From: Pseudomonadota bacterium
GTDB taxonomy: Bacteria > Pseudomonadota > Gammaproteobacteria > Halothiobacillales > Halothiobacillaceae
Length of the DNA stretch: 61,274 nt
NCBI GenBank assembly: GCA_021801265.1
Contig: JAJYYE010000009.1
Location: forward strand, 1 to 61,274
Direction: 5' to 3'
Positions 1,629 through 60,222 of this stretch are shown in pieces (within the stretch, counting starts at the first letter, position 1; the number at the start of each line of letters is the position of its first letter). A program made the position numbers and the translations under genes. The notes beneath the pieces were generated by a model. That model saw only the letters and a program-made list of their open reading frames with translations. It did no database searches and was not told where the DNA came from.

Positions 1629-1638
1629 TCCGCCCTGT

Positions 1639-11480: not shown

Positions 11481-11514
11481 CCCATCCATCGGAATCGTGG
11501 ACTGTGACAGGGCA

Positions 11515-12489: not shown

Positions 12490-12577
12490 CGTCTTGCTCC
12501 ATCGTTTCTGATCGACTCATCTTAGCCCTTCTCGATGCCTGTCGTACAATGCTCACGTCTTCACGCTGTTGTTACCC

Positions 12578-13390
12578 ATGAACGAATTCCCCCTTAACGC
12601 TCCAGACTTGCCATTGGCCGCGCCGAACATTGGCTGGCTGACGCCCAGTAAAAAACTCCAACGCACGGTGGCTCGCACCCTGATGGAGTTTTCTATGATC
12701 CAACCTGGTGACCGCATCCTGATCGGTCTTTCCGGTGGCAAGGACTCGCTTTCACTCCTGCATTGCTTAGCCCATGTGCAGCGGCGCGCGCCCATTGCGT
12801 TTGATCTGGCGGCCATTACCATCGACCCGCTGGTTGGCGGCTTTGATCCCGCGCCGCTGGTGCCTTACCTCGCGGCACTCGGCATCCCGTATTTTGTCGA
12901 ACGCGAAGATATCGTTGGTTTGGCCAACGAGCACATGCGTGGGGATTCTTACTGTGCGTTTTGTGCGCGCATGAAACGCGGCCTGCTCTACAAGGCGGCG
13001 CGGCGTGAGGGCTACACCGTGCTGGCGCTGGGGCAACATCTGGATGATTTGGCGGAAAGTTTTTTGATGAGCGCGTTTCACGGCGGCAAACTCAATACCA
13101 TGAAAGCACATTACCGCAACGATGCGGGTGATGTGCGCATCATCCGCCCCTTTGTGCGCGTGCGTGAGCGGATGCTCGCAGACTTCGCCGCGCACAATCA
13201 TCTGCCGGTGATTAAAGACAACTGCCCCGCCTGCTTCGCCAAACCGACTCAACGTGAACATTTCAAGCACGTACTGGCGGATGAGGAGCGCCTCAACCCC
13301 CAGCTGTTCCGCTCGCTGGCGGTCACACTCACCCCATTGATGCGCGATGGCTTGGCCACCGCGCTGGGGCCCAATGAGCTTGAACTGTGA
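12578..13390 (+). CDS. ttcA: TtcA-family tRNA thiolation ATPase (PP-loop)
   Basis: Member of the tRNA 2-thiocytidine synthetase family, which adenylates and thiolates C32 of tRNA using an Fe-S cluster. The ATP pyrophosphatase loop SGGKDS lies at about residues 52-57. Paired cysteines CAFC (about 125-128) and CPAC near residue 215 fit the cluster ligands, though the second pair differs from E. coli TtcA (NLCGSQ). At 270 residues it is shorter than E. coli TtcA (311). The start is the ATG at 12578. The stop overlaps the next gene's GTG start (GTGA). It may be a diverged TtcA relative. Confidence 0.8.
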   Translation: MNEFPLNAPDLPLAAPNIGWLTPSKKLQRTVARTLMEFSMIQPGDRILIGLSGGKDSLSLLHCLAHVQRRAPIAFDLAAITIDPLVGGFDPAPLVPYLAALGIPYFVEREDIVGLANEHMRGDSYCAFCARMKRGLLYKAARREGYTVLALGQHLDDLAESFLMSAFHGGKLNTMKAHYRNDAGDVRIIRPFVRVRERMLADFAAHNHLPVIKDNCPACFAKPTQREHFKHVLADEERLNPQLFRSLAVTLTPLMRDGLATALGPNELEL

Positions 13391-45902: not shown

Positions 45903-46846
45903 TCCCTCAGCCCCCGTCCGGTTAATCGCAAAAACACGTCCTCCATACCCGCGCGGCGGTGAATAATGGTGAGCTCGGGCGCATCGGCCAAAAATTCAAG
46001 TATTGGCATCGGTGCATGGGTGTAGATATAAACCGCCGTGCCTTGGCGCTCGGCATGGGCACTCATCGAGCGCAAAGTCATAAATAATGCTTCGCTCACC
46101 TCGCCGCGCAGCTCGATCACATCGCTTTCCACATGCCGATGAATTAAATCCGTGGGCGAACCCTGATCGAGTATCCGCCCCTGATCCATCACCACCAACT
46201 CATCGCACAAGCGCTCGGCCTCTTCCATATAGTGCGTGGTGAGAATCAAGGTCACACCGCGTGCCTGCAATTCGGCCAGCCGCGCCCAAATCACATGCCG
46301 AACTTGTGGATCCAGCCCCGTGGTGGGTTCATCGAGCACCACGATCTCCGGATCATTAATGAGCGCGCGCGCAATGGTGAGCCGTCGCTTCATGCCGCCA
46401 CTTAAGGTGTCAACCTTGGCTTGCGCCTTGTGCGTTAATTCGGAAAATTCCAGCAACGCCTCAACCCGTGCCGCCACGGTCGCCCGTTTGAGGCCAAAAA
46501 AACGGGCGTACATAAACAAGTTTTCCCGCACGGTAAAATCCGGATCGAGATTATCCGACTGCGGCACCAGCCCCACCCGCGCCCGAATCGCCCGCGCCGC
46601 CTGGGGCAGAGCCTGCCCTAAAATCGACAAGCTGCCCGCATCAAAATCCGCCAGCCCCATCAACATTTTTAACGTGGTGGTTTTGCCCGCACCATTGGGG
46701 CCAAGAAAACCGAAGCACTGTCCTGGTTTGATGGAAAAATCAATACCATCAACCGCTCGCAACGTGCCAAATGATTTCACCAACCCCGACGCCTGCACCA
46801 CTGGTGATTTGAGCAGGGGGGTACTTTGCTTTGCCAATCCGGTCAT
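45899..46846 (-). CDS. ABC transporter ATP-binding protein, NodI/DrrA type
   Basis: ATPase subunit of 315 residues. Walker A is FLGPNGAGKTT, the Q-loop is in VGLVPQSDN, the signature is LSGGMKRRLTIARAL, and Walker B is IVVLDEPTTGLD. A C-terminal extension of about 80 residues after the ATPase core is normal for this subfamily. Its start overlaps the waaA stop, and its stop overlaps the permease start, so waaA-ATPase-permease is a three-gene coupled operon. Confidence 0.94.
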   Translation of the reverse strand: MTGLAKQSTPLLKSPVVQASGLVKSFGTLRAVDGIDFSIKPGQCFGFLGPNGAGKTTTLKMLMGLADFDAGSLSILGQALPQAARAIRARVGLVPQSDNLDPDFTVRENLFMYARFFGLKRATVAARVEALLEFSELTHKAQAKVDTLSGGMKRRLTIARALINDPEIVVLDEPTTGLDPQVRHVIWARLAELQARGVTLILTTHYMEEAERLCDELVVMDQGRILDQGSPTDLIHRHVESDVIELRGEVSEALFMTLRSMSAHAERQGTAVYIYTHAPMPILEFLADAPELTIIHRRAGMEDVFLRLTGRGLRE

Positions 46847-48153
46847 CCTGCATCCCCATCCTTCTCATTACTATTGAGTTTGGTCGATGACACGACACGC
46901 ACATCGTCCAAAATTGGCGCTAAGGCATCCACAATCCGCTGTGTCGCACCCCGGTTCGCCTGCACAACCGCATAGGCACGCGCCCCCATTGCAGACCAAT
47001 GCGTTGGCTGTGCCCATGCCGATTGCACCGCTGTGGCGACATCTACCGCATCACCGACAAAATGTACCGCATCGTTCGCGGCAAGCTCACGATACACGGC
47101 CCGGAAATTTCGCACCCGCGGCCCACTCAGCACCGCACGCCGGAACAAGGCCGGTTCAATCGGGTTATGGCCGCCCGTTCGCACCAACGAGCCGCCCATA
47201 AAAATCACGGCAATGGCGGAAAAAAACCGCATCAACTGCCCCGTTTGGTCGATAAGAAGTACCTGAGTTGCCACTTCAACGGCCCCGCCGCTGCGTGTGT
47301 GAGAAAATTGCTGCGCAACCAACCCCCGCGCGGCAATTAATGCGCGCACAGCGGATGCGCGCTCCGGGTGGCGCGGCGCCAAGACCAGCAGCGCCTGCGG
47401 GTGCAGGGCTAACAAGGCCCCATGCGCCTCAAGCAACAATGCCTCTTCGCCTTCATGCGTGCTCGCCGCCAACCACACTGGCCGCGCACCCACCGACCAG
47501 GGCGCCACCGCGCGTTCGGCCAAATCGAATTTCACATTCCCACAATCCAAAATCTGCACGGTCATCACAGGCGGTGCCAAAGCCACAAACCGATCGCGAT
47601 CCACTGCCGACTGCGCACAGATCAGCGTCAATCGGGCGAGCGTTTCGCGCAAAAGCGCCCCTCCCCATCGCTGATAGCGACCAGACGATTGATCCGATAA
47701 ACGCGCATTGACGACCGCTACCGGTACATTCATTTGCGCAGACAATCGAATTAAATTGGGCCACAACTCTGTTTCCATCACAATCATCAAGCGCGGCAGT
47801 AACCGATGCAACGCCGCACGCTGCGCAAAAGCGTAGTCGAACGGTGCATAAAAATGCGGCACGCCCAATTCGCGTGCCGCATTGGCACCTGTTTCTGTCG
47901 TGGTACTCACCACCAAAGGCAAATTAGGCCAGCGGCGTTGCAAGGCTGTGATTAACGCTGCCGCCGCCCGAACCTCGCCCAATGATACTGCATGCAGCCA
48001 AATCCCCCCCGACGGCACATCCGCAGGCAAGCGGCCAAACTGCGCGAATAACACCCGCTGATGTTTAGGGGCGCGGAAAAAACGCCGTAGTGAGTCGAGC
48101 ATCAACCAAGGAAATAATATGAAGAGCAGGAATGAATACATCCACGCGGTCAT
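46843..48153 (-). CDS. waaA: Kdo transferase
   Basis: 3-deoxy-D-manno-octulosonic acid transferase (KdtA) that adds Kdo to lipid IVA, joining lipid A to the LPS core. A membrane anchor at the N-terminus (MYSFLLFILFPWLML) is followed by a GT30 domain with WLHAVSLGEVRAA (catalytic Glu), VVSTTTETGANAA, METELWPN and a GT-B donor domain (FMGGSLVRTGGHNPIEPA). About 436 residues. I chose the ATG at 48153 because GAGAGG lies 9 bases before it; an ATG at 48174 is also in frame. A waaA gene anchors this region to LPS assembly. Confidence 0.94.
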   Translation of the reverse strand: MTAWMYSFLLFILFPWLMLDSLRRFFRAPKHQRVLFAQFGRLPADVPSGGIWLHAVSLGEVRAAAALITALQRRWPNLPLVVSTTTETGANAARELGVPHFYAPFDYAFAQRAALHRLLPRLMIVMETELWPNLIRLSAQMNVPVAVVNARLSDQSSGRYQRWGGALLRETLARLTLICAQSAVDRDRFVALAPPVMTVQILDCGNVKFDLAERAVAPWSVGARPVWLAASTHEGEEALLLEAHGALLALHPQALLVLAPRHPERASAVRALIAARGLVAQQFSHTRSGGAVEVATQVLLIDQTGQLMRFFSAIAVIFMGGSLVRTGGHNPIEPALFRRAVLSGPRVRNFRAVYRELAANDAVHFVGDAVDVATAVQSAWAQPTHWSAMGARAYAVVQANRGATQRIVDALAPILDDVRVVSSTKLNSNEKDGDAG

Positions 48154-48257
48154 TCGCAGCATCCTCTCAGTCATGTTAAGAATAAACGCGGTGCATTATG
48201 CCCAAATCCAAGCAACAACCCATAACAACGCACCCGAGTGCCTGTTAAAATCTCCGC

Positions 48258-49184
48258 ATGAATCCTGAACTTAACTTGATCCAAAAAATACAACTCGCAT
48301 TGGCCTCGTTCCCGCTGCATTTGTTAGCCGCATTGCCGCAAACGGCACGTTTGAAATTGGGCCAAACGATAGGCCGGGGGGTGGGCATCCTGATCAGAAA
48401 ACGCCGCCACATCATGGTGCATAACCTAACTCTCGCCTTCCCCAAACAAAGCCACGATTGGCGACAGACAGTCATTCGGCAGCATTTAGAACGCCTGGGC
48501 GAGGATGCAATGGAATCATTTTGGGGCTGGTATGGCAACACCCGCCGCCCCCCCGAACACACCGTGATGGGTGCCGAGCATATCGAAGCCGCCCTTGCCC
48601 GCGGCCAAGGCGTCATTTTGAACGCAGGCCATTTCACCCCCGGCGATTTTGCCGTATACCTCGCCGCCCAACACTGGCCGATTCACGCCGTATATCGCCC
48701 AAATAACAACCCGGTGATCGACGAACTCATCAATCATGGCCGCCGCAAACATGTAATACAGTTAATTGATCGGGAAAATACCCGAGGGATGATTCGCATA
48801 TTAAGGCAAGGCGGAATTCTCTGGACCGCCGCCGATCAAAGTTACCATGGGAAACAAAGCGCCTACTTGCCCTTTTTCAACATCAAATGCGCCACCAGTA
48901 CCGCCATTCCCGCGATGGCACGGATGGGCAATGCGGTTGTCCTGCCGTTTTATGTACGCCGTGAAGGCGGGCGCTACCAAATAGTGATCCACGCACCGCT
49001 TGAGCACCTACCCAGCGGCGATGATGTCGCTGATACGGCGCGCCTTGTTACCGTTTTGGAGGCAGAAATCCGCACTGAACCCAGCGCCTATTTGTGGGGG
49101 CATCGGCGGTATAAGAACCTCGCCCCAAAAGACTTCGCAGGGGAGACGGCCAAGGATGCGGACAGTAATTTCACCAAAAATTAG
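48258..49184 (+). CDS. LpxL-type lipid A acyltransferase (HX4D variant)
   Basis: Third member of the HtrB family in this window, 308 residues. It has an N-terminal hydrophobic segment (LALASFPLHLLAALP), catalytic motif HFTPGD (His-X4-Asp), NNNPVIDELI, DQSYHGKQSAYLPFF and a closing WGHRRYKNLA. It is divergent from waaA by an 83-base gap and overlaps the convergent glycosyltransferase end by 4 bases. Nearness to waaA makes a true lipid A acylation role more likely here than for the pair near 14 kb. Confidence 0.9.
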   Translation: MNPELNLIQKIQLALASFPLHLLAALPQTARLKLGQTIGRGVGILIRKRRHIMVHNLTLAFPKQSHDWRQTVIRQHLERLGEDAMESFWGWYGNTRRPPEHTVMGAEHIEAALARGQGVILNAGHFTPGDFAVYLAAQHWPIHAVYRPNNNPVIDELINHGRRKHVIQLIDRENTRGMIRILRQGGILWTAADQSYHGKQSAYLPFFNIKCATSTAIPAMARMGNAVVLPFYVRREGGRYQIVIHAPLEHLPSGDDVADTARLVTVLEAEIRTEPSAYLWGHRRYKNLAPKDFAGETAKDADSNFTKN

Positions 49185-50302
49185 CCAGGAACTATCCACA
49201 TCGATGGCGTACGCCGTAGCGCGTTGATTTTCTGGTGAATCACCGAGGGCTCAAACACCGTGTGGGCGCGCTCGGCACAACGCGCGCCGATTTCGGCACA
49301 ATAATCCGGATACGACATTAAAGACGTCAATTCCCGCGCCAAAGCATCGACCGTCGGTTCCACCAGAATCCCCGCATCACCCACAACTTCGGGCAATCCC
49401 CCACGGTTTGAGGCAATCACCGCGCAACCGCCCGCCATACCCTCAAGTGCCGTGCGTCCGAATGGCTCATCCCACAACGATGGCACTACGGCAATCGCCG
49501 CTGAATTAAACGCAGCAATAACCTCAGCGTAACGCTGATACCCCTCAAACTGAACCTGTGAGGCAAGTACCGGATCGCTCTTAACCTGTTGTTGCAACTG
49601 CCGCTCATAGGTGTGATGCAAGCCCTTTTGTCCAAAATAGCGCGCACCGATCAAGCGTGCACGCCATTGCGGAAAATTGGGCAAAACGCGCCCTAATGCC
49701 TCAACCAAAATATGCACACCTTTTTCTGCCACCATTCGCCCGACAAAAATAATCTCCGCATTTTTCGGCGACTTGGCCGTCAACTGCACCACATCTACCG
49801 TATTGGGCACAACAAAAACCCGACTACACGCGGCTTCAGGCAATTCCACGCATAACCGCCCCCGAACATAATCACTCACACAAACGACATAATCAGCCAA
49901 TTCAACAATCGCACGGCGCTCAGCCCGTGTTTTCAAACCCCGAATCAATTGGGGATCGTTATGCAAATACAGGGCAACAGGAAAACCGAGCCGAATCAAC
50001 GGCAACAAGAGATGTGCCCGATTATGAACTTCAAGCCGATGGGGTTGATGCAATCGAGCCGACTGAACGATCGCCCGCAGATAGCGATGACTTTGTCGTC
50101 CAAGCCACCACCAAGCCGGGCGCAACGGTCGAAAAATCTTAGACACCACCAACGGCGCGGCCTGCAACGGGTCACCCCAAGCCTCCAGCGAGGCATCAGC
50201 CGGTGCATCCGCTAACTGACCGGCCACAGTGAGCGCAATAGCCCCCGCATATCCCACCGAAAACTGTTCCCGATGCGGCAGGACAATGGCTGTTTCAAGC
50301 AT
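49181..50302 (-). CDS. GT4-type glycosyltransferase
   Basis: GT-B fold glycosyltransferase of 373 residues. The donor half holds EIIFVGRMVAEKGVHILVEAL, VVPSLWDEPFGRTALEGMAGG (the Glu-X7-Glu nucleotide-sugar motif) and a Gly-Gly-Leu-Pro-Glu-Val phrase. The start at 50302 makes a short overlap with the ligase stop, while the longest frame would overlap by 56 bases. It is probably translated with the O-antigen ligase-like gene and adds a sugar to the LPS core. Donor and acceptor unknown. Confidence 0.87.
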   Translation of the reverse strand: MLETAIVLPHREQFSVGYAGAIALTVAGQLADAPADASLEAWGDPLQAAPLVVSKIFRPLRPAWWWLGRQSHRYLRAIVQSARLHQPHRLEVHNRAHLLLPLIRLGFPVALYLHNDPQLIRGLKTRAERRAIVELADYVVCVSDYVRGRLCVELPEAACSRVFVVPNTVDVVQLTAKSPKNAEIIFVGRMVAEKGVHILVEALGRVLPNFPQWRARLIGARYFGQKGLHHTYERQLQQQVKSDPVLASQVQFEGYQRYAEVIAAFNSAAIAVVPSLWDEPFGRTALEGMAGGCAVIASNRGGLPEVVGDAGILVEPTVDALARELTSLMSYPDYCAEIGARCAERAHTVFEPSVIHQKINALRRTPSMWIVPG

Positions 50303-51593
50303 GATGGTTTGCAAAAGGAACCCGTGCCCGAGCCAAAGCCCAAGCCACACCTGTCCAAATCACCGCCGCCGTCCAGCCGTTAAAATACTCCATTGAGCTT
50401 TGCAGCGGCCAAAAAGACGTCAATAAAACCGCCCCCCCAAAATAAGCCTGCATCGGTTGGCTCCGGCGAAACGCATCGCGGATCAAGAGAATAAACAAAA
50501 ACCCGACCATCGCCACAAAAGCTAAAAATGCCAAAATGCCCCCCTCAGCCAGCATGCCGGTGTAGAAATTATGCGGATGAATCACGCAACTCGTTTCAAA
50601 CCCGAACTTGGGATATTGGGCCTTGTATGTTGGCAAATAGTCATTGCAATACGCCATAAATTGCCGCGCACCAACCCCCGTCCAAGGTCGTGCCTGAAAT
50701 TCTGCCCAGGCGGACATAAAGTTGAGGCCGTACACTGTGCTATCCAGGTGCGTGATGGTCTGCCAGCTCGAATCGATCGTACGCTGCACCATTTGTGGTT
50801 GTTTTGCCGCCACCACACCGGCCGCAAGCGCGACAGCAACAAGTCCTGCCAGTAATAGCCGCCGCCATTGCGGCACATGAATCAAGATACCGATGATGAC
50901 CACCAAGCTACCGAGCATAAAGGTCAAAAACGCGGCGCGCTCTCCCGTCAAAAACAAGACCAGGGCACCAATACCGGATGTCGCGACCAATACCCAAAGC
51001 GCCCATTTGGGCCGCCTACGCAACATCGCATAAAACAGGGTGGCCAGACCGATAAACCAAACGCGATCGGTAAAGGTACCGACCATGGGATGCGCAAATG
51101 GCCCAGACAAACGCAGTGGGCCAAAGCTGGGGTATCCGAATAAATCCCGGCCAAATACGTACTGAATGATCGTATCGATGACGATAAATCCGATAATGGT
51201 CAGCATCGCCCACTCAAATAGCGCTAACGCACGCGGGCGACTCACGAACAGCCAAATCAAAACAGCCGCAAAAATCGGCCAGCGCAAGGCTAAAATTGCA
51301 CTCATGGCCGAATAACCGGGATTCAAAGAGAACGGGGCCAATACGAGCAAAATCAAAGACACCGCCGCCGCCGCGTAGAACCACTCTGCCGCCAGCCAGG
51401 AAAAATCTTTGCGCCGAATTGCCACCCCAAGACCAATGATCACCGTCAAACCAACGGCAATTTCGGCAGGTACTCGTTTGAACAGCACCATGACCGGTAA
51501 AATCAATACCGCAAACAGAATGAGTTGCTCGACCCGCGGGTGCTTTGCGCCTGCCGTTACCGACGCATGAATTGCTTTGCCTGACTCGGGCAT
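50295..51593 (-). CDS. O-antigen ligase-like (Wzy_C/WaaL) membrane protein
   Basis: A 432-residue polytopic protein with about eleven hydrophobic spans. It has the large periplasmic loop typical of WaaL: WTGVGARQFMAYCND with its Arg, then IHPHNFYTGMLAEGGILAF, where the conserved HxHN-like His lies. WaaL joins undecaprenyl-linked glycan to the lipid A core. The family also holds Wzy polymerases and glycoprotein ligases, so the exact role is open, but neighbours point to LPS. Confidence 0.85.
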   Translation of the reverse strand: MPESGKAIHASVTAGAKHPRVEQLILFAVLILPVMVLFKRVPAEIAVGLTVIIGLGVAIRRKDFSWLAAEWFYAAAAVSLILLVLAPFSLNPGYSAMSAILALRWPIFAAVLIWLFVSRPRALALFEWAMLTIIGFIVIDTIIQYVFGRDLFGYPSFGPLRLSGPFAHPMVGTFTDRVWFIGLATLFYAMLRRRPKWALWVLVATSGIGALVLFLTGERAAFLTFMLGSLVVIIGILIHVPQWRRLLLAGLVAVALAAGVVAAKQPQMVQRTIDSSWQTITHLDSTVYGLNFMSAWAEFQARPWTGVGARQFMAYCNDYLPTYKAQYPKFGFETSCVIHPHNFYTGMLAEGGILAFLAFVAMVGFLFILLIRDAFRRSQPMQAYFGGAVLLTSFWPLQSSMEYFNGWTAAVIWTGVAWALARARVPFANHHA

Positions 51594-51750
51594 GAATTTA
51601 TCCTAAAAAATTGCACGAATATCGATTCGCGCCAGTATCGCAAAAAACACCCACTGTAAGCCAGCGCTCCATCTGCACCCTATTGGGGCTAAAAACGGCT
51701 ACAATTCGACGAGGTTTTCGTCGTTATGTCTCCGCCTTTGAGCGACTTTT

Positions 51751-52461
51751 ATGCACAATATTCTCTGTATCAAATGGGGCACCGCCTATGGCGCGCTCTA
51801 TGTTAATCGACTTTTGCACATGGCCAAGCGCCATATGCAGCTACCATTTCGGTTTATTTGCCTAACTGACGATGCAACCGACATCGATCCTGAGGTTGAA
51901 ATTCGCCCCATCCCCGATGTCGCACAACCCCAGCACAATCATCTTTCCCCATGGCGCAAACTGGCGGTTTTTTCGCCCGATTTGGCAGACATTCAAGGAA
52001 AAACTTTATTTTTGGATTTGGATGTTGTTATCGTCGATGATTTGACAGTATTTTTTGAAGGGTTCGATGACCTCACGATTATCGAAAACTGGACTCAGCC
52101 GGGGCGCGGCATTGGCAATTCCTCGGTGTTTTTATTTCGCCCCGGCACACATCCAGATATTTTCCAGCAATATCAAAGTAATGCGGAAAATATCTCCCGC
52201 CACTATGGCAACGAGCAAACCTATTTCTCTCAACAAATTACTGATCTCAAATACTGGCCGAAACATTGGTGCCGGAGTTTCAAATTCCACGCCATTCCCA
52301 CATGGCCCTGGCGCCTGATTCAAACCCCGCGCCTGCCCGAGGGATGCCGTATTTTGGTGTTCCATGGCCGCCCAAACCCGGATGCGGCGATTGCGGGTGC
52401 ATACTCGAGCTGGCGCAAGTTTTATCGGCCCGCCCCTTGGATTGCGGATTACTGGCAATGA
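51751..52461 (+). CDS. GT8-like glycosyltransferase
   Basis: A 236-residue cytoplasmic protein with a GT-A look. Near residue 90 the phrase LFLDLDVVIVDDL holds the DXD metal motif in a setting like GT8 galactosyl- and glucosyltransferases. NSSVFLFRPG and an HGRPNPD end motif also fit. It starts a rightward pair with the DUF535 gene (ATGA overlap). The upstream 157 bases to the ligase start must hold divergent promoters. It probably extends the surface glycan. Confidence 0.78.
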   Translation: MHNILCIKWGTAYGALYVNRLLHMAKRHMQLPFRFICLTDDATDIDPEVEIRPIPDVAQPQHNHLSPWRKLAVFSPDLADIQGKTLFLDLDVVIVDDLTVFFEGFDDLTIIENWTQPGRGIGNSSVFLFRPGTHPDIFQQYQSNAENISRHYGNEQTYFSQQITDLKYWPKHWCRSFKFHAIPTWPWRLIQTPRLPEGCRILVFHGRPNPDAAIAGAYSSWRKFYRPAPWIADYWQ

Positions 52462-53372
52462 CACCAACGCTACCAACTGCTGCCGAACTGTATCCGACAG
52501 ACCACATCAAGCGACTTTTATATCGGCTGCGCTGCCTGTGGTTTGTGGCCTGCACACGTCAATGGCATGACTTTTTAACAAGCCAGGATTGGCTGCTTGA
52601 GCTGACGCACCTGAAACCCAAGCTACTGGAACGCATCCATCGGCCTTATCAGCAGGCCCACCTTAGCTGCCCCGCACGGCTTGCGCGCGTGATCGAACAT
52701 TACACCGCTTGCCAAGCGGCAAACTGGCAGGCAATTTGTCTGCATCTTGCTCGCCAACCTTGGACGCTGTGTACCCTTCGCGTCAAAGATGGTACCGCAT
52801 ACCGCATCATGCTGTGGATGCGCGAGTCCGCACACAAGGAAGGAGAATGGCTCCTCTGCCTGCACCCCGTCGACAATGAAACGCCGTTATATAGCCTTTC
52901 CCTGAGCCTGCGGCTCACCCGCTCAAGCAAGGATCGCGTTTTATTTATCGGCGGCTTGCAAGGCCCGGCGGGGGATGAAGCTCGCGAAACGGTACGGCAA
53001 CTCACACGCCAGTGTTACGGCGAGCGCCCGCGCAGCTTGCTTTTGGACGTGACGCGCGCGCTCGCCGCAGCTTCGGGTTGCGCGCAGCTTGATCTCGTCA
53101 GCAGCCAGTCGCACATCTACAACCATCGGCGCAAGCGCAAAAAGCTATTTTTTGATTATGACCAGTTCGCGCTCGAGGAAGGCGGCACGCAAACGGATGA
53201 TGCGACCTGGGCTTTGCCCTTAAAACATGCTGCGCGGAACCTGACAGAAATCCCCTCAAAAAAACGGGCAGAATACAGCCGTAAGCAAGCCTTGCTCGAA
53301 CGCATCACCTTGGATGTGGACAGCGAAATCGGGCGGCTCATCACAACACACGCCATCAATCCAAATGCGTAA
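52458..53372 (+). CDS. DUF535 (VirK/YbjX family) protein
   Basis: A 304-residue protein of the VirK/YbjX family, whose biochemical role is unknown. VirK-type proteins have been linked to outer-membrane integrity and peptide resistance. Matching parts are LYSLSLSLR, VLFIGGLQGP, LDLVSSQSHIYNHRRKRKKLFFDYD (only the part SQSHIYNH is highly conserved) and the LP-rich end. I use the ATG at 52458, which overlaps the GT8-like stop. Coupling to a sugar transferase supports a surface role. Confidence 0.8.
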   Translation: MTPTLPTAAELYPTDHIKRLLYRLRCLWFVACTRQWHDFLTSQDWLLELTHLKPKLLERIHRPYQQAHLSCPARLARVIEHYTACQAANWQAICLHLARQPWTLCTLRVKDGTAYRIMLWMRESAHKEGEWLLCLHPVDNETPLYSLSLSLRLTRSSKDRVLFIGGLQGPAGDEARETVRQLTRQCYGERPRSLLLDVTRALAAASGCAQLDLVSSQSHIYNHRRKRKKLFFDYDQFALEEGGTQTDDATWALPLKHAARNLTEIPSKKRAEYSRKQALLERITLDVDSEIGRLITTHAINPNA

Positions 53373-54171
53373 AAAACCCTTGGCTCATGCCAATGCGAAA
53401 ATCTTGTTCCCGCCACCAGCGCCGATTGAGGGCGCGTTCGATATCTTGTGCGCCCTGCACGAGCCGCCGCGAAGGATGGCTAAACACACGCGGCAACACT
53501 TGGTCGCGCATCCACGCAGTACGAATCAATACCGACTGATTACTCCATCCCCAGTATCGTGATGAAACACGGTGGATATCCGCCGAAAGCCGATCGATCT
53601 CGGGATGACGCGCCTCGGCATTGTTGATACACAATGGCGCTGAACCCAGAAGCCGCCGCGCCTTCAAAGGCCTAAGCCAACGCCGCCAAGCCGAGGCTGT
53701 CTGCCGCCCAGGACACGACCAATAGCGGCAATATTTCGCACACACATTGAATTTCGCGCCAGGATACGGAATCGACCGCAATTGGCAAGCATCAAGCTCG
53801 CCTCGCGCCAGCCAATCTCGCGCTTCTTGCAAACGCCGATGAACAACATGCGGCGACTCTATCACGGGGCAATCATTTTCGAGCATCAACGTAAACGGTT
53901 CAGGCGTGTGTGCGAGCATGGCTTGCCAGGCTGGGGCAATACCAATATTCGCTGGCGAGCCAAAAACCTCCAGGCCAAAGCGCTCGGCGACTTCACGATC
54001 CCGCGCATTGATTTCCTGAAAAAAAATACGTTTGCGGTGGATGAGATCAAGCAAGCCCGCGTTCTGCAGGCTTGCGAGCATGTGCTCCAAACGATCCCAA
54101 CGCTGCCAACTTAAAATCCATAAGCTGACGTCGTCAAGGTTCATCGAAACAGAATCATGAGGATGCGGCAT
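53356..54171 (-). CDS. Glycosyltransferase-like protein (GT-A look)
   Basis: A 271-residue protein that starts like a GT2 enzyme (SLWILSWQRWDRLEHMLASL), keeps an acidic LENDCPVIE near residue 95 where a DXD would be, and ends with conserved aromatic-basic stretches. I judge it a glycosyltransferase by fold likeness, not by family certainty. It converges on DUF535 with a 17-base overlap and lies 9 bases after the oxygenase gene on its own strand. Met10 is an alternative start. Confidence 0.65.
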   Translation of the reverse strand: MPHPHDSVSMNLDDVSLWILSWQRWDRLEHMLASLQNAGLLDLIHRKRIFFQEINARDREVAERFGLEVFGSPANIGIAPAWQAMLAHTPEPFTLMLENDCPVIESPHVVHRRLQEARDWLARGELDACQLRSIPYPGAKFNVCAKYCRYWSCPGRQTASAWRRWLRPLKARRLLGSAPLCINNAEARHPEIDRLSADIHRVSSRYWGWSNQSVLIRTAWMRDQVLPRVFSHPSRRLVQGAQDIERALNRRWWREQDFRIGMSQGFFTHLD

Positions 54172-54180
54172 ACGCGTGGA

Positions 54181-54810
54181 TCAACCTCGCGTAAACCAGC
54201 GTTTGATTTTCGCCGAAAGCCCGTGCCGCCATTGACTGCGGCGCACAGCAGCCTCATCCACCACCCAGTTCAGCTGGATGCTACGGCGCTGACCGACAAA
54301 GGGTTTATGGCCGTGCCATGCGTTTTCGGTATTCACGAACGCGAGCAAAGTGCCTGCATCGGGCGATACTTCATCGAACCAATCCTCCACATGATCGGAG
54401 CGCAGCAAGCGCAAACCACCATCTTCGGGGTTCCAGCCGCTATTCAGATAGAGCAAAACGGTCACGACTTTCGATCTCGAATCGGTATGCACACGACCAT
54501 CTTGCGGTCCACTGTAGCCGCGAATGGTGATGGTGGTGGGTTTGCCGACCAGGTCAACGCCGAGTTTTTCAGAGAATTTTTTAGCCGCTTCTTCACTTTC
54601 AAGATACTCAACGAGTTTCACAAACGAAGGGCCGCTTTTAAGCTCATTCATTGGGAAACTACCGCGCTTCGGCACATCAGGGAAATCGCGATCAATCTCC
54701 TCCATCGCCGCTTTGGGCACAAAACGGCGCGCCACAAAATGCACAAATGGCGCACGCACCACCGGTGCGGCATCGAAAGCGTTTAAATCGATTAAGTTTT
54801 GTTTCGTCAT
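54181..54810 (-). CDS. 2-oxoglutarate/Fe(II) oxygenase (prolyl 4-hydroxylase-like)
   Basis: A 209-residue non-haem iron oxygenase. The facial triad is visible: His108 and Asp110 in VHTDS and a distal His166 in NAWHGHKP, with the 2-oxoglutarate Arg176 in RRSIQLNW. The jelly-roll core spans about 90-182. It has no signal peptide, so it acts in the cytosol. It is embedded 3 bases from one GT4 gene and 9 bases from another glycosyltransferase-like gene, so a sugar or lipid-sugar precursor is a likely substrate. Hydroxylation of Kdo by KdoO is a known precedent for such chemistry on LPS. Confidence 0.86.
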   Translation of the reverse strand: MTKQNLIDLNAFDAAPVVRAPFVHFVARRFVPKAAMEEIDRDFPDVPKRGSFPMNELKSGPSFVKLVEYLESEEAAKKFSEKLGVDLVGKPTTITIRGYSGPQDGRVHTDSRSKVVTVLLYLNSGWNPEDGGLRLLRSDHVEDWFDEVSPDAGTLLAFVNTENAWHGHKPFVGQRRSIQLNWVVDEAAVRRSQWRHGLSAKIKRWFTRG

Positions 54811-54813
54811 GAT

Positions 54814-55893
54814 TTATTTCTCACTCAATGCATGTGTGGATGCTAACACACGGTCATACAACGCGAGCGTCTCCCGCCCTTGTCGCTCGATGCTAAATTG
54901 GCTTCGAGCCGTCTTTTTCGCGGCCAGGCCCAATGCCTTCGCTTTGGCCGGATTGTGCAGCAACGCGCTGACCGCGATTGCGATTTCACTCGGGTTCGCA
55001 GGTTCGATGAGTAAGCCATTTTGAGTGGGCCGAACCATTTCGGGAATAGCGCCCGTTCGCGTTCCTACACAGGGCAAGCCTATACTCATAGCCTCAAGAA
55101 ACGCCAAACAAAACCCCTCCTTGATGCTGGGCTGGAGATACACATCGGCGGCTCTCAGCAGATCCGGCACGTCCTGCCGCGCACCCAAAAACGTGACGCG
55201 GGAAGCCACGCCGAGCTTATTCGCCAACCTTTTCAGCTCAGCTTCCAGTACGCCGGCACCAACGAGCACCAGCTGCGCTTGGGGCGTATGCCCTAAAATC
55301 TGCGGCAACGCTTCGATGGCGAACGCATGTCCCTTCGCTGGCACAAGCCGGGCGACGCACAACACAATAAGGCGATCACTTAACGCCAACTGGGCGCGCA
55401 CCCGCGCTCGATTTGCAGCATCACACTCAATCGGCGTAATAGCATTGTGCACCACGGAACAACGCTCAGCAGGAAACCCACAATCCAGTAATGATTGTCG
55501 CACCTGTTGAGAAACGCACAACACATACCCTGCGGTGCGGAAGGGCTTAAGACTTTTAACGATATTGTGTGCGGTCGCTATCCAAGGAACGGAACCATTC
55601 GTTCGAGCCACCATCGCCGCAGAACGCGGCATATGGGCGTGAATAAGCACGGGTTTGTTTTGCTGAATTATTCGTCGTATTCGCCAGAGCGTGAATGGAT
55701 TCCACCGTCCACCACGACCGAAAATAAAACACTCAATGCCTGCCGCATTAAGGGCATCACTTAACGCCCCCACGTGCGGCATGGCCACGGCGACCGCAAG
55801 ACCCGTTGCGATCTGAATACGGCTTAAATCGAGCACATGTTGCTCTGCGCCACCGATGTCTGTTGAACTGATCACGTGCAAAATCCGCATCAC
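54814..55893 (-). CDS. GT4-type glycosyltransferase
   Basis: A 359-residue GT-B enzyme. The acceptor half begins ILHVISSTDIGGAEQHVLDL, with the family's Gly-Gly loop. The donor half shows LVPAKGHAFAIEALP, LVGAGVLEAELKRLA, and QPSIKEGFCLAFLEAMSIGLP (Glu-X7-Glu). Similar to WaaG/WbpH-like transferases that act on LPS core or O-chains. It lies between the oxygenase and another GT4 on the same strand, an apparent leftward operon of four genes. Confidence 0.9.
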   Translation of the reverse strand: MMRILHVISSTDIGGAEQHVLDLSRIQIATGLAVAVAMPHVGALSDALNAAGIECFIFGRGGRWNPFTLWRIRRIIQQNKPVLIHAHMPRSAAMVARTNGSVPWIATAHNIVKSLKPFRTAGYVLCVSQQVRQSLLDCGFPAERCSVVHNAITPIECDAANRARVRAQLALSDRLIVLCVARLVPAKGHAFAIEALPQILGHTPQAQLVLVGAGVLEAELKRLANKLGVASRVTFLGARQDVPDLLRAADVYLQPSIKEGFCLAFLEAMSIGLPCVGTRTGAIPEMVRPTQNGLLIEPANPSEIAIAVSALLHNPAKAKALGLAAKKTARSQFSIERQGRETLALYDRVLASTHALSEK

Positions 55894-55917
55894 GCACCAA
55901 GCTCCATGTAATACAGG

Positions 55918-57051
55918 TTACCGTCGCGATTGAATAAGTTCGTCATAAACGCTCATGGTTTGCGCTTGCATCGCTGCCAACGTGAATGGACGATCGAGCG
56001 ATATGGGGGGCGCGCCATTTTGGCACCAATTCCGTAATTTAATGACCGCCGCATCCCAATCCCCCAAGGCAATGGCACCTTCAGGATACATCGCAGCGAG
56101 TTGCTCGCCCACGCCGCCATGCGCGTAACCCAGCACGGGTTTACCCAAACTCAAGGCTTCTAAACTCACGCGGCCAAATGCTTCAGCATCAGTAGACAGC
56201 GAAAGCACAACGTCACTCACCGCCATAATGTTTTTCAAATCCGAACGCTGGCCGGTGAGCGTAACCGCCGACGCCAAGCCCATCTCAATGATTTTCATTT
56301 CAATTTCTTGCAGAAAATGCTGCTTTCGAGGATGCGCCTCACCAACGATGAGTGCATGGACGGGAATACCGTTCGCCAGTAAACACTGCACGATTCCCAG
56401 CAAGTCGAGCTGGCCTTTCCAGCGCGTAATCCGCCCCGGCAAGGTAATCACCCACTTACCCGCCAGTTGGGGAAACTCCGCTTGCCATAAAGCTTGCCAA
56501 CGCGCATCCGGCATAAAACTTGGCGCGTAGCTGTCAGGATCGACCCCGCGATAGATGCGGGTGATGCGCTCGGCGGCCACAGCGGGATAATACCGGGCTA
56601 TGTAGCGCACAATCATGTCAGAGACAGCGATCACTCGCTCGCCCTTCACCATCACCGCGCTGTATGCATTTGGGGTATACGGGCCGTGGACGGTCGTCAC
56701 CAATCGAGGGCGGGTGGCTTTATCCATACCGCGCCACGCCAGCCAGCCAATCCAAGCCGGCACGCGTGAACGAAGATGCAGAATATCCACAGCACGCGAC
56801 AGCAATAAATCCCTGACAACGCGCACATAGCGCAAGGTACTCAAAGACTTTTTGCCGATCGGCAACGTGATGTGTTCAGCACCAAGCGCTTCCAACTCAG
56901 CCACCATGCGCCCGCCACCAGACACCACAATGGCCCGATGACCTGCGGCAATCAGCGCGGCGGCAATCTCGATCGTGCCGCGCTCAACACCCCCGCTTTC
57001 CAGCGCTGGCAGCAGTTGCATCACCGTCATGGATGAGCAGCGCTTGAGCAT
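55918..57051 (-). CDS. GT4-type glycosyltransferase
   Basis: A GT-B transferase that begins VMQLLPALESGGVERGTIEI, continues with LHLRSRVPAWIGWLAWRGM, and has a donor half with LPGRITRWKGQLDLLGI, GQRSDLKNIMAVSDVVLSLST and GRVSLEALSLGKPVLGYAHGG (Glu-X7 type site). The start is uncertain. The longest frame begins at 57156, only 18 bases from the divergent oxygenase, so I prefer an ATG near 57051 (or 57030). First gene of the leftward glycosyltransferase-oxygenase set. Confidence 0.88.
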   Translation of the reverse strand: MLKRCSSMTVMQLLPALESGGVERGTIEIAAALIAAGHRAIVVSGGGRMVAELEALGAEHITLPIGKKSLSTLRYVRVVRDLLLSRAVDILHLRSRVPAWIGWLAWRGMDKATRPRLVTTVHGPYTPNAYSAVMVKGERVIAVSDMIVRYIARYYPAVAAERITRIYRGVDPDSYAPSFMPDARWQALWQAEFPQLAGKWVITLPGRITRWKGQLDLLGIVQCLLANGIPVHALIVGEAHPRKQHFLQEIEMKIIEMGLASAVTLTGQRSDLKNIMAVSDVVLSLSTDAEAFGRVSLEALSLGKPVLGYAHGGVGEQLAAMYPEGAIALGDWDAAVIKLRNWCQNGAPPISLDRPFTLAAMQAQTMSVYDELIQSRR

Positions 57052-57174
57052 TGGTGATTCTGATATTTTGGGCGTGAGGGGCATGCGGCGTACACTGGTT
57101 AAACTTTTAGCGATAAGGGGTTTATTATACGCGCCTGACTCGCTCACATTGCTCATATCTCAAAGGCCACGCGT

Positions 57175-57858
57175 ATGTCCGATTTTGCCCCTCTCGATCT
57201 TGTTAAAACCAGCCTGCTGCATTCATTCGCCAGCGCGGAGCAACGGGAGTCACCCTATCGGCACTGGCGATTGCAGGATGTGCTGCCGTTTGAAATCGCT
57301 CAATCCATTGCACTACTGCCATTTACCCCGCCCGTGATCGACGATACCGGCGGCAGGCGAGAAACGCATAACGAATCTAGGCGATTTTTCGATCAAGATG
57401 CGATCAAAAAACTCCCGACCTGTGCCGCAGTTGCTCATGCCCTTCAATCGCCTGAGCTAATTGCCATTATCGAACAACGATGTGGTTTGGATCTCATTGG
57501 CACCAATTTGCGGATTGAGTATGCGCTGGATACTCAAGGTTTTTGGCTTGAACGCCATACCGATTTGGGGGTAAAAAAATTCACGATGTTGGCGTATATG
57601 TCTGAAGATGCCGAACATGAAAACTGGGGCACGGATATTTACGCAGACAAAGAGTCTCCCGCGCAACGCGTGCCCGCCGTGTTCAATACGGCCATGATCT
57701 TTGTCCCGTCCAGCAACACTTGGCATGGCTTTGAACCACGAAAAATCAACGGAGTTCGGCGCACATTGATTATTAACTATGTCACGCATGAATGGCGCAA
57801 CCGGCACGAACTGGCATTCCCGAACACCCCTATTGGCTCACCCACTGGCAAATCATAA
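57175..57858 (+). CDS. 2-oxoglutarate/Fe(II) oxygenase-like protein
   Basis: A second, distinct iron oxygenase of 227 residues. His128 and Asp130 (RHTDLGVKKFTM) with His184 in NTWHGFEP and Arg195 or Arg196 in GVRRTLIINY complete a triad plus 2-oxoglutarate ligand. The N-terminal 110 residues are unlike the gene at 54181. No signal peptide. Its stop overlaps the ELM1-like start as TAATG. It is divergent from a GT4 gene, so both cluster oxygenases flank the same glycosyltransferases. Substrate unknown, perhaps a surface-sugar precursor. Confidence 0.8.
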   Translation: MSDFAPLDLVKTSLLHSFASAEQRESPYRHWRLQDVLPFEIAQSIALLPFTPPVIDDTGGRRETHNESRRFFDQDAIKKLPTCAAVAHALQSPELIAIIEQRCGLDLIGTNLRIEYALDTQGFWLERHTDLGVKKFTMLAYMSEDAEHENWGTDIYADKESPAQRVPAVFNTAMIFVPSSNTWHGFEPRKINGVRRTLIINYVTHEWRNRHELAFPNTPIGSPTGKS

Positions 57859-58883
57859 TGGCCGAAGTCGGATTAACCGCAACCTCGTCAGCCATACCTC
57901 ATTCCTCGCCCAAAATCTGGTTGCTCACGAACGATGCGGTGGGATTGCGCAATCAAGCCATCGGTTTGGCAGAGCATATCGGCTGGCCGTTTGAGCTCAA
58001 GCTGGTCAACTTAACCAAGCCTTGGCGCTGGCTGCCGGGGCATTGGTTGCCCCGAGCACACACCAAACTCACGCCGGAATCATCGCCCTTGCAGGCACCG
58101 TGGCCGGATATGATTATTTCCTGTGGTCGGCTCGGCGCCGCCGCCGCGCTCGGTGTCAAACGCGCAACGGGTGGCCAAGTATTTACGGTGCATATTCAAA
58201 ACCCCCAAATGCCGCATCATCTGGTTGATTTAATCGCACCGCCGCGCCATGACGGATTATCAGGCCCGAATGTGATTAATACGCGGGGGGCGCTCCATCA
58301 CGTCACCCCAGAAAAAATCGCCCGTGCAATCGCTGAACAAACTTCCCAGCACCCCGATCTCCCGCGAATCAAGCAGAATCAGCGCGTGATTGGGGTTTTG
58401 ATTGGCGGGAGCAACGCAACAGCAATACTTACCCCAGACAAAAGCCGACAATTAATCGCATTACTGATAACTGCCGCAAGCGCACAAAACGCTCACTTGT
58501 GGATCACGGCCTCTCGGCGCACGGGTAATGAAAATATCGCCGCCATGCGTGACGCGATAAGTGGCTCATCTCATTGGTTTTGGGATAACACAGGCGAAAA
58601 CCCCTATCACGCCATTTTGGGCATGGCAGATTATTTGATTGTCACCGGGGATTCTGTATCAATGGTGTCAGAAGCGGCATCTACGGGAAAGCCGGTTTAT
58701 ACCTTGGATTTTGATGGGTACTCAGGCCGACTGAATGATTTTCACCGATCGTTAAGAGAAGAGGGCGTCACCCGGCCATTCCAAGGCGAACTTGCCGTTT
58801 GGGCCTATGAACCCGTTAACGACACGCCGCAAATCGCCACACTTATTCGGGAACGATTTCATCATCATCAAGGGCACGTATAG
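57858..58883 (+). CDS. ELM1/GtrOC1-like protein (DUF1022, GT-B look)
   Basis: A 341-residue protein of the 'mitochondrial fission ELM1' family, named for a plant homologue but in bacteria often found among LPS genes. Features include WLLTNDAVGLRNQAIGLAE at the N-terminus, HIQNPQMPHHLVDLIAPPRHD, GVLIGGSNAT, and VTGDSVSMVSEAASTGKPVY, which look like a nucleotide-sugar GT-B site. The start at 57858 gives a TAATG coupling to the oxygenase gene. A role in sugar transfer or export of a modified glycan is plausible. Confidence 0.82.
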   Translation: MAEVGLTATSSAIPHSSPKIWLLTNDAVGLRNQAIGLAEHIGWPFELKLVNLTKPWRWLPGHWLPRAHTKLTPESSPLQAPWPDMIISCGRLGAAAALGVKRATGGQVFTVHIQNPQMPHHLVDLIAPPRHDGLSGPNVINTRGALHHVTPEKIARAIAEQTSQHPDLPRIKQNQRVIGVLIGGSNATAILTPDKSRQLIALLITAASAQNAHLWITASRRTGNENIAAMRDAISGSSHWFWDNTGENPYHAILGMADYLIVTGDSVSMVSEAASTGKPVYTLDFDGYSGRLNDFHRSLREEGVTRPFQGELAVWAYEPVNDTPQIATLIRERFHHHQGHV

Positions 58884-59077: not shown

Positions 59078-59290
59078 TTAATCAACGAGACGATATACCG
59101 TGCTGCAATAAATACAACGCGCCATATCGCCTGGGGTTTCTAAATGGATATAAACCCGAGGATGCGCGTTCCAGAGGAGCTCATCCTCACGCGGGCAATA
59201 CACAGGTAAATCTGCCTGTTGAACCAGAACCTCACACGCAGCACTCGCCATTTTGAATGAATCCGGATGGGCCGCAGTATCCGGATTCAT
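59078..59290 (-). CDS. CHCC zinc-finger domain protein
   Basis: A 70-residue protein of the zf-CHCC family, related to the complex I accessory subunit NDUFS6. The ligands are Cys32 (LPVYCP), His43 (WNAHPRVYI), Cys59 and Cys62 (ARCIYCSTVYRLVD). The ATG at 59290 forms an ATGA overlap with the ilvE stop; a longer frame would lie inside ilvE. The pairing of this protein with ilvE is common in beta- and gammaproteobacteria. Function not known. Confidence 0.88.
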   Translation of the reverse strand: MNPDTAAHPDSFKMASAACEVLVQQADLPVYCPREDELLWNAHPRVYIHLETPGDMARCIYCSTVYRLVD

Positions 59291-60222
59291 GCCCGCTCCT
59301 CGGTGAAATTCAACCAAGGATTAAACTCCGCATCGAATCGGCCATGCACGAGATCGAAATAAGCTGACTGCAAGCGCTCCGTAATCGGGCCGCGAGTGCC
59401 ACGCCCAATCAGACGGTTATCCACTTCTCGAATCGGCGTAACTTCCGCTGCAGTTCCGGTAAAGAAGGCTTCATCCGCAATATAAACCTCATCACGGGTG
59501 ATGCGTTTTTCAATCACTTGATAGCCAAATCGCTGAGCCAAAGTGATGATGGTACGGCGGGTAATGCCATCCAGCGCTGCTGTCAGGTCGGGTGTATACA
59601 AGACGCCATCACGCACAAGAAAAATATTTTCCCCTGAACCCTCGGCAACAAACCCTTGGGTATCCAACAACATCGCCTCGTCATAACCATCTTGCGTCGC
59701 TTCCCGCAGCGCCATCATGGAATTCATATAAGCGCCCGTCGCCTTGGCTTTACACATGGTGACATTGACATGATGCCGAGAATAGCTCGATGTTTTGATC
59801 CGGATACCCCTCTGAATGTTTTCCGCACCCAAATAGGCACCCCACTCCCATGCGGCAACCACCACATGCACCTTCAAATTATCTGCACGTAAACCCATGC
59901 CTTCCGAGCCATAAAAAACCAAGGGGCGCATATAGGCGCTCTCCAGTTGATTTTCGCGAATGACTTGCCGGTGCGCATCGTTAATAACGCTTTCGGTATA
60001 AGGCATGGGCATACCGAGAATTTTGGCAGAGTTGGCGAGCCGACGGGTATGGTCTTCAAGTCGGAAAATAGCCGTACCACGATCCGTTTTATAGGCGCGC
60101 ACACCCTCAAAGCAACCCATACCGTAGTGCAAGCTATGTGTCAGAACATGTATTTGAGCAGCGCGCCACTCAACCATCTCACCGTCAAACCAGATAAAAC
60201 CGTCTCGATCATCCATCGACAT
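59287..60222 (-). CDS. ilvE: Branched-chain amino acid aminotransferase
   Basis: PLP class IV aminotransferase for the last step of Val, Leu and Ile synthesis, 311 residues. MDDRDGFIWFDGEMV, HSLHYGMGCFEGVRAY, KAKATGAYMNSMMALREA (with the PLP Lys), DTQGFVAEGSGENIF and VYIADEAFFTGTAAEVTPI are typical of IlvE. It is the first gene of a leftward unit with the zinc-finger and small membrane genes. The 216-base upstream gap holds no gene; I see no leader peptide or attenuator. Confidence 0.96.
   Translation of the reverse strand: MSMDDRDGFIWFDGEMVEWRAAQIHVLTHSLHYGMGCFEGVRAYKTDRGTAIFRLEDHTRRLANSAKILGMPMPYTESVINDAHRQVIRENQLESAYMRPLVFYGSEGMGLRADNLKVHVVVAAWEWGAYLGAENIQRGIRIKTSSYSRHHVNVTMCKAKATGAYMNSMMALREATQDGYDEAMLLDTQGFVAEGSGENIFLVRDGVLYTPDLTAALDGITRRTIITLAQRFGYQVIEKRITRDEVYIADEAFFTGTAAEVTPIREVDNRLIGRGTRGPITERLQSAYFDLVHGRFDAEFNPWLNFTEERA

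Follow-up and report, generated by a model that had tools for sequence, protein, structure and literature searches.

We propose that two oxygenases encoded in a lipopolysaccharide (LPS) inner-core locus of the sulfur bacterium Halothiobacillus, which we call OxyA and OxyB, are paralogous LPS-core oxygenases that oxidise the region of 3-deoxy-D-manno-oct-2-ulosonic acid (Kdo), a reading to which we assign a probability of about 0.55. The locus lies on a stretch of 61,274 nucleotides (contig JAJYYE010000009.1 of assembly GCA_021801265.1), called the window below, from a genome of 2.66 Mb whose closest named relatives are Halothiobacillus genomes (OxyB identity 71-80%). The gene set is that of a Halothiobacillus LPS inner-core locus, with waaA and lpxL on its left and ilvE on its right; oxyA is located at 54181..54810 on the minus strand and oxyB at 57175..57858 on the plus strand. 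Judged from sequence, the best reading is that the two proteins represent a new LPS-core oxygenase family that acts on Kdo or an adjoining sugar. Oxygenase action on the LPS core is supported because of the conserved gene neighbourhood, the Kdo-transferase identity of those ELM1 proteins that have been studied (one ELM1-family gene follows oxyB) and the fold matches. A first-pass annotation of the window had suggested that two unrelated oxygenases modify a core glycan of LPS. That interpretation was right in kind and is partly supported, and we sharpen it to a Kdo-centred one; the supposed lack of relationship between the two enzymes did not survive closer comparison.

Both proteins match PF13640 (2OG-FeII_Oxy_3), OxyA with an E value of 5.5e-11 and OxyB with one of 6.4e-6, and both exceed the family cut-off, OxyB barely (27.5 versus 27 bits). 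Residues H108, D110, H166 and R175 of OxyA are invariant in 31 of 31 aligned rows, as are H128, D130, H184 and R195 of OxyB in 19 of 19. Alignment A1 holds 31 of the 35 OxyA sequences and omits the divergent L109 and three rows from one genus; A2 holds 19 of the 21 OxyB sequences, without two same-genus rows. With the HxD...H triad, the Arg that binds 2-oxoglutarate (2OG) and a double-stranded beta-helix fold, OxyA and OxyB belong to the 2OG/Fe(II) oxygenase superfamily, and the intact active sites recognised in the first-pass annotation are confirmed. The motif HxDxxxK is present in every row of both alignments (31/31 and 19/19). It is found neither in the consensus of KdoO nor in the genome's third PF13640 protein, which is encoded on contig C8 and matches the family more strongly (93 bits).

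The two oxygenases are homologous. BLASTP aligns them with 28% identity over 143 residues (E 4e-11), and the profile-profile comparison gives a probability of 99.1% over 179 columns, spanning residues 10-193 of OxyA and 16-213 of OxyB; the earlier description of the N-terminal halves as unlike was not confirmed. On this sequence evidence the two are paralogues of ancient origin and can be aligned along most of their length. In a 54-row tree, which includes the short, divergent OxyB of L092 (absent from A2) and omits the genus loci L113-L118, OxyA and OxyB form two separate clades with a long branch between them. Halothiobacillus OxyB groups with that of locus L089 (support 99/91) and, with good support, with a gene of genome G248 that is linked to ELM1, waaA and lpxL; Halothiobacillus OxyA groups with the ELM1-linked L094 and L096 with weak support (90/56). 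Both genes are present in 10 of 10 Halothiobacillus genomes searched, and they reside in the core locus wherever the locus was read; by location, the Halothiobacillus copies belong to the LPS-linked members of the family. The 17 other genomes of the bacterial family yielded no strong match to OxyA or OxyB, the best being one to OxyA at E 7.9e-8. Because two sister-genus genomes (G014 and G016) keep the order waaA-lpxL-GT4c-ELM1-ilvE without an oxygenase, the locus seems to be older than its oxygenase genes, which would have been added later, oxyB exactly between GT4c and ELM1.

The predicted models of OxyA and OxyB, with predicted local distance difference test scores of 92.4 and 84.9, both have PasI and PolD as their best fold matches among the solved structures compared. 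For OxyA, PasI gave Z 22.3 (root-mean-square deviation 2.2, 185 residues aligned) and PolD Z 21.2 (2.1, 181); for OxyB, the corresponding values were Z 18.6 (2.6, 191) and Z 18.1 (2.8, 187). Tpa1/OGFOD1 came after these (Z 17.6 for OxyA and 16.0 for OxyB), followed by prolyl hydroxylases. A single-sequence search of the PDB linked OxyA to PolD (E 1e-7), and profile searches linked OxyA to PolD (3.6e-18) and PasI (1.4e-16), and OxyB to PasI (9.4e-5) and PolD (0.0018). PasI and PolD are, thus, both the closest solved folds and the closest PDB sequences by profile, and they have HxDxxxK in common with OxyA and OxyB, whereas identity in the structure alignments is only 20-24% for OxyA and 12-14% for OxyB. 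The PasI structure was solved with a free phosphorylated compound, the name of which, as given in the title, reads as octosyl acid phosphate. In the passages of PMC5365060 that deal with it, PolD is part of a nucleoside antibiotic pathway, and the role proposed for it and PolK, called putative there, is cleavage of octosyl acid (a C8 sugar acid) at the C6'-C7' bond. The setting of OxyA and OxyB differs from such a cluster in that it is an LPS core locus.

The gene that follows oxyB encodes an ELM1-family GT-B protein of the KdoT type (57858..58883, plus strand; PF06258, Mito_fiss_Elm1, E 1.2e-98). The longest open reading frame (ORF) opens at 57792, and the likely start is the ATG at 57858, which overlaps the oxyB stop codon TAA (57856-57858) in the sequence TAATG. 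The ELM1-like identity of this protein and its coupling to an oxygenase, both noted in the first-pass annotation, are upheld by these results. According to the main texts of PMC10936431 and PMC12856342, bacterial ELM1-like proteins had no assigned function before A1S_2903 of Acinetobacter, now KdoT (Journal of Biological Chemistry, December 2025), was demonstrated to be a CMP-Kdo (cytidine monophosphate-Kdo) transferase that adds a third Kdo and depends in the cell on the glycosyltransferase family 4 (GT4) enzyme GnaT (LpsB); Acinetobacter ELM1 proteins transfer Kdo or complement its loss, and one from Rickettsia does so partly. The window protein contains ASRRTGNEN, and hence the SRRT motif, of which the second Arg matters for activity in KdoT. 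By its sequence it belongs to the KdoT family and is presumably a Kdo transferase. The arrangement also resembles the Acinetobacter KdoT/GnaT (A1S_2903/LpsB) system in that an SRRT-containing ELM1 protein is encoded in the vicinity of a GT4 of the LPS type and of further core genes; it differs in the presence of oxygenases, since the main texts of PMC10936431 and PMC12856342 speak of no oxygenase, dioxygenase or hydroxylase. A search of the open-access literature for a link between ELM1 and an oxygenase returned one unrelated plant paper (subscription papers lay mostly outside the search), and among the matches listed for Kdo together with oxygenase, KdoT appeared only in the 2025 paper.

The ELM1 gene is found in a recurrent setting. 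From a sample of 369 gammaproteobacterial genomes, DNA was obtained for 30 ELM1 loci, the window among them. A homologue of the GT4 gene that we call GT4c adjoins ELM1, or is separated from it by a single gene, in 18 of these loci, and a homologue of ilvE is present in 15. As far as sequence allows, ELM1, GT4c and ilvE make up a recurrent Kdo/GT4 locus, in which donor and acceptor of the ELM1 protein are putative. GT4c is a candidate counterpart of LpsB/GnaT. At locus L085 of genome G041 (10227-12787), two ELM1-family genes in a row follow oxyA and oxyB, the second at G041:C50:85746-86711.

The same sample contains OxyA in 20 genomes, OxyB in 8 and both in 5 (Fisher p 1.4e-5, a value that ignores relatedness). 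In the four genomes outside Halothiobacillus that have both, the genes form a tandem pair 86-141 bp apart. All 8 genomes with OxyB and 11 of the 20 with OxyA carry ELM1, compared with 80 of 369 overall. At 6 of its 9 places (5 of 8 if the window is set aside), OxyB has ELM1 no more than 250 bp away, and OxyA has it within 5 kb at 7 of 23, the window being counted once in either case; the chance of an ELM1 gene within 5 kb is 0.4-0.6% per place, calculated from rough mean genome sizes with random placement and relatedness ignored. OxyA, OxyB and ELM1 share one locus in three lineages, namely Halothiobacillus, G041 and G447. Of 27 distinct oxygenase loci, 19 are near a gene of LPS inner-core or lipid A synthesis: ELM1 is within 5 kb at 11, a GT9 heptosyltransferase gene is next to oxyA at six (five by Pfam, one by phmmer only), a lipid A acyltransferase gene is about 500 bp away at one and kdoO adjoins oxyA at one (G159). 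At the remaining 8, of which three are tandem pairs and five hold a single oxyA gene, no LPS neighbour was found among those neighbours that were scanned, and one of these loci, L109, has a GT4 gene beside the oxygenase. Outside the window, ORFs were taken as the longest open frames, matched ones being preferred, so that neighbour starts are approximate and some genes are hidden. An APH-type kinase gene is situated upstream of oxyB-ELM1 at two loci (L090, 8405-9397; L091, 3379-4557), and sulfotransferase genes are near ELM1 and oxyA at two others (L097, 4751-6109; L106, 7299-8261), a hint that the core is decorated in other ways too.

In a second, independent sample, which comprises 172 alphaproteobacterial genomes, OxyA is present in 31 genomes, at 40 places. 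Of these places, at least 19 (in 19 genomes) have ELM1 no more than 2 kb away, and at least 17 have it within 500 bp. Since ELM1 is common in this class (138 of 172 genomes), adjacency and not co-presence is the telling signal. One of two fragment rows of genome G559 was dropped from these counts, which also disregard ELM1 rows from genomes that have no oxygenase. Of the 19 ELM1-linked places, 14 were read, and 12 show a same-strand run of ELM1, one or two oxygenases and a protein of about 630 residues. The gene for the latter, found at L227-L238, is usually the one after oxyA; at L234 the order is ELM1-oxyB-oxyA, followed by further ORFs and then the 630-residue gene, and at L229 this gene is seen as two overlapping frames. 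The protein has many invariant residues (alignment A3, 14 rows). Neither Pfam nor NCBIfam gave a match to it, and its only hit in the PDB is insignificant. Three gammaproteobacterial loci (L093, L094 and L096) also have its gene adjacent to oxyA, with ELM1 nearby. It was not found in 19 relatives, 10 Halothiobacillus genomes among them, a weak negative in that this sample held no known positive.

KdoO, the Kdo 3-hydroxylase, is the sole Kdo-oxidising enzyme family that we met in the literature and among the families searched, and the comparison with it bears directly on our proposal. From the sections of PMC8533242 that describe it, KdoO is like the proposed enzymes in being an Fe(II)/2OG oxygenase with an HxD motif that acts on inner-core Kdo during assembly; the Yersinia enzyme takes the assembled inner core as its substrate, at a stage later than KdtA. 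It differs in having its own family, PF11004, separate from OxyA and OxyB. That OxyA or OxyB is itself KdoO is ruled out, as neither matches PF11004 at E values up to 1, and hhalign gave probabilities of 1.7 and 0.7%, respectively (KdoO alignment A4 contains 17 of the 22 sequences found). No PF11004 match was detected in the 10 Halothiobacillus genomes. KdoO structures were not among the 50 fold entries listed for either model, which excludes nothing. In the gammaproteobacterial sample, KdoO also occurs in 2 of the 8 OxyB-bearing genomes (G159 and G271) and in 1 of the 20 with OxyA (G159). ELM1 is present in only 2 of 29 kdoO genomes, and both of these, G159 and G271 again, carry oxyB beside ELM1. 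We also considered whether the oxygenases replace kdoO at a shared locus in pairs of sister genomes (G332/G104 and G273/G368), but found no evidence of such an exchange: in the two kdoO genomes, no GT9 homologue was seen beside kdoO (L182, L183). Elsewhere, kdoO is beside a GT9-like gene (89 bits) in G162 (L185, 9886-12427), and beside a homologue (200 bits) of the window gene at 51751-52461 in G249 (L187, 9885-11607). LpxO, the lipid A 2-hydroxylase, is another 2OG oxygenase that acts on LPS, as we propose for OxyA and OxyB, and belongs to a different Pfam family of the Asp/Asn beta-hydroxylase type; a Pfam scan of the cluster proteins returned no match of that type.

How might the oxygenases work at this locus? 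Kdo, like octosyl acid, is an eight-carbon sugar acid, and it serves as donor, acceptor or product for KdoT, heptosyltransferase I and KdoO. WaaA would place Kdo on lipid IVA, the ELM1 protein would add a further Kdo in the manner of KdoT, and GT4c and other transferases would extend the core chain. OxyA and OxyB may then oxidise the Kdo region in the cytoplasm during core assembly, most simply by hydroxylating a Kdo residue that either WaaA or the ELM1 protein has added. They would, thus, do a job like that of KdoO from a different branch of the superfamily, one with a fold nearest to octosyl-acid enzymes. We infer that Kdo, and not a neighbouring sugar, is the substrate; which carbon would be oxidised, and in what order the enzymes would act, belong equally to the inferred steps. 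OxyA and OxyB presumably act on different positions or residues, and the surface structure may, as envisaged in the first-pass annotation, be doubly oxidised. One could envision a more elaborate, rather improbable scheme by analogy with PolD/PolK: OxyA and then OxyB might carry the ELM1-added Kdo beyond hydroxylation, for example by oxidation or C-C cleavage of its side chain, to an undescribed ulosonic acid, the ELM1-oxyA-630-residue operon might be a widespread Kdo-tailoring module, and the 630-residue protein might represent a new enzyme or scaffold family.

Several observations weigh against the Kdo-centred proposal and have to be considered together with its rivals. Activity and LPS structure were found for no member of the OxyA and OxyB families. 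The single-sequence search of the PDB found no relative of OxyB, and the likeness of the predicted folds leaves the substrate unfixed. SRRT is not diagnostic of Kdo transfer, because it is general in the ELM1 family (seen in 17 of the 19 proteins scored in the gammaproteobacterial sample), and the oxygenase-free loci of the sister genus indicate that ELM1 needs no oxygenase. OxyA is not simply a KdoO replacement, because in G159 (contig C12; L095, 9703-11320) oxyA is directly upstream of kdoO on the same strand, the matches being 188 bp apart; this neighbourhood suggests that the two families do different jobs. No ELM1 match was detected in 9 of the 20 OxyA-bearing gammaproteobacterial genomes, six of which are GT9-linked. 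Because GT9-linked OxyA occurs in genomes without ELM1, heptose or another adjoining sugar is the main rival to Kdo. According to this explanation, which we consider unlikely but worth keeping in view, the substrate is a core sugar next to Kdo (heptose, or a residue added by GT4b or GT4c) that is oxidised, for example, to a hydroxy or acid form. The GT9 neighbours of oxyA, one of them accompanied by an HldE-type gene, would fit, as would the position of oxyA only 3 bp after GT4b in the window and, in genome G002, an asparagine-synthase-type amidotransferase gene directly upstream of oxyA, which encodes a kind of enzyme able to amidate carboxylates. On the other hand, the link with ELM1 is seen in two classes and extends to every OxyB-bearing gammaproteobacterial genome, the nearest folds are those of enzymes tied to octosyl acid, and GT9 was not seen among the core-locus proteins scanned with Pfam and NCBIfam, a scan that did not extend to the remaining window and genome. 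A variant with Kdo still as the substrate, in which Kdo or CMP-Kdo is hydroxylated as a precursor and the ELM1 enzyme transfers the modified sugar, would account for the tight coupling with the transferase gene and for the free phosphorylated compound in the PasI structure. We hold it to be very improbable, given that OxyA is also found without ELM1, that the Yersinia KdoO acts on assembled inner core and that CMP-Kdo is described as short-lived in the main text of PMC12856342.

The oxygenase family is broader than the ELM1-linked LPS loci, and our claim concerns the LPS-linked members only. A tandem oxyA-oxyB subclade is accompanied not by LPS genes but by a gene whose product, which we take to be chorismatase-like, ends in a Ribonuc_L-PSP (Rid) domain, or by a homologue of that gene, at four chromosomal loci, three gammaproteobacterial and one alphaproteobacterial (L086, L087, L088 and L057). 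The same subclade is present on two plasmids, of Acidiphilium and Acidithiobacillus; the Rid gene is 3.6 kb away on one, and none is in the stretch shown of the other. Coordinates of these mobile-looking loci are 7784-10427 (L086), 161-3221 (L087), 8135-10817 (L088), 8059-10747 (L057), 7147-8513 (L150) and 7279-8645 (L151). On the Acidiphilium plasmid, genes for a Rid protein, two U32 peptidases and an SCP2 protein are about 3.6-7 kb from the tandem pair, a set presumably similar to the genes of oxygen-independent ubiquinone biosynthesis. Among the neighbours tested of the tandem pairs of Aerophototrophica and two Acidocella species, there is no LPS gene; Aerophototrophica OxyB groups with that of Halothiobacillus, and the Aerophototrophica and Acidocella genomes hold ELM1 elsewhere. 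Genome G395 (1.9 Mb; L056) has OxyB and no ELM1 match. In alphaproteobacteria, 21 of the 40 OxyA places have no ELM1 within 5 kb among the matches listed, and at the 7 of them that were read (L054 included), none of the homologues or of the few neighbours tested was a gene of the LPS core. The first-pass annotation had raised the point whether such oxygenases are widespread without glycosyltransferases, and the answer from the two classes is mixed. These members are what one would expect if the enzymes tailor a soluble metabolite outside LPS and the LPS location is secondary, an explanation that we find improbable for Halothiobacillus, where the copies fall into clades with ELM1-linked members (strongly for OxyB, weakly for OxyA) and both genes occupy the core locus throughout the genus wherever it was read. 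Equally, PHD2, OGFOD1/Tpa1 and a Pseudomonas EF-Tu hydroxylase among the fold matches might suggest protein hydroxylases of the prolyl hydroxylase type, acting perhaps on a core-assembly enzyme. We hardly expect this, as PasI and PolD outrank all protein hydroxylases for both models, and a different protein of the genome, encoded on contig C8, matches PF13640 more strongly and lacks HxDxxxK.

If the proposal of Kdo-region oxidation is true, a second family, unlike KdoO in sequence, is linked to Kdo transferases in many Gram-negative bacteria and offers a gene-level handle on Kdo modification. Oxygenation of the LPS core is known in kind. The proposal predicts a so far undescribed chemical change in the inner-core Kdo region, and bacterial ELM1 proteins now have a recurrent set of partners. 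Kdo is among the most conserved LPS sugars, and a modification of this kind alters the acid stability of LPS and perhaps its recognition. The family could also be relevant to alphaproteobacteria, for example Granulibacter and Acetobacter pasteurianus, the LPS of which, according to the text of PMC8036547, carries the hydroxylated sugar Ko; the gene that forms it is not named in that text, where "hydroxylase" appears only in the title of a cited paper on the Kdo hydroxylase.

The six packed genes of 53356-58883 described in the first-pass annotation are present as ORFs and correctly placed, and they form the right-hand part of a larger LPS core locus, the further genes of which (46843-53372) comprise waaA, lpxL, a third GT4 gene, an O-antigen-ligase-like gene and two more. 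The waaA (kdtA) gene, for the transfer of Kdo onto lipid IVA (46843..48174, minus strand), matches the NCBIfam lipid IV(A) Kdo transferase model with E 1.6e-114, its score of 382.7 bits being below the equivalog cut-off of 438 bits. It is followed by an lpxL/htrB-type lipid A acyltransferase gene (48258..49184, plus strand; TIGR02207, E 1.2e-65, below cut-off), GT4a (49181..50350, minus strand; PF00534, E 1.1e-28) and a gene for an O-antigen ligase-like membrane protein of the WaaL type (50295..51593, minus strand; PF04932, E 2.8e-16). The product of 51751..52461 (plus strand), which we presume to be of the GT8 type, has no match in Pfam or NCBIfam; it is a possible glycosyltransferase with a homologue at the sister-genus locus L189 (223 bits). 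The DUF535 ORF (52266..53372, plus strand; PF04393, E 5.1e-71), which we take to be of the VirK/YbjX type, overlaps the end of this gene and converges on 53356-54171; the match begins at residue 82, and the true start is probably further in, near 52458. The 53356..54171 protein (minus strand), previously called GT-A-like, gave no significant match in Pfam, NCBIfam or PDB sequences, leaving that label without support. Its gene is probably real because a homologue (187 bits) is present in the matching locus L189, one of the two sister-genus genomes read; it is absent from the other, L190.

The two GT4 assignments of the first-pass annotation hold: GT4b is at 54814..55893 (minus strand; PF00534, E 1.5e-40) and GT4c at 55918..57156 (minus strand; PF13439, E 4.3e-25). 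The true start of GT4c is probably downstream of the annotated 57156, a later start being suggested, without proof, because a TATAAT sequence is situated on the minus strand within the annotated N-terminus; a promoter scan of the GT4c-oxyB interval found nothing. The aminotransferase gene at 59287..60222 (minus strand) is presumably of the ilvE type. Neither a phage origin nor a defence function is supported for the oxygenases. OxyA has no match in a phage collection, and a viral fold search with it returned generic 2OG oxygenases; of eight cluster proteins scanned with PADLOC, OxyA alone gave a match, to a generic model named "2OG" that is CRISPR-associated (E 1.7e-8). Between Halothiobacillus genomes, the core locus varies in its outer part, the slot beside oxyA being occupied in one by an asparagine-synthase-type amidotransferase gene (L110, 5846-7678) and in another by a polysaccharide deacetylase gene and a GT2 gene (L111, 6240-7840).

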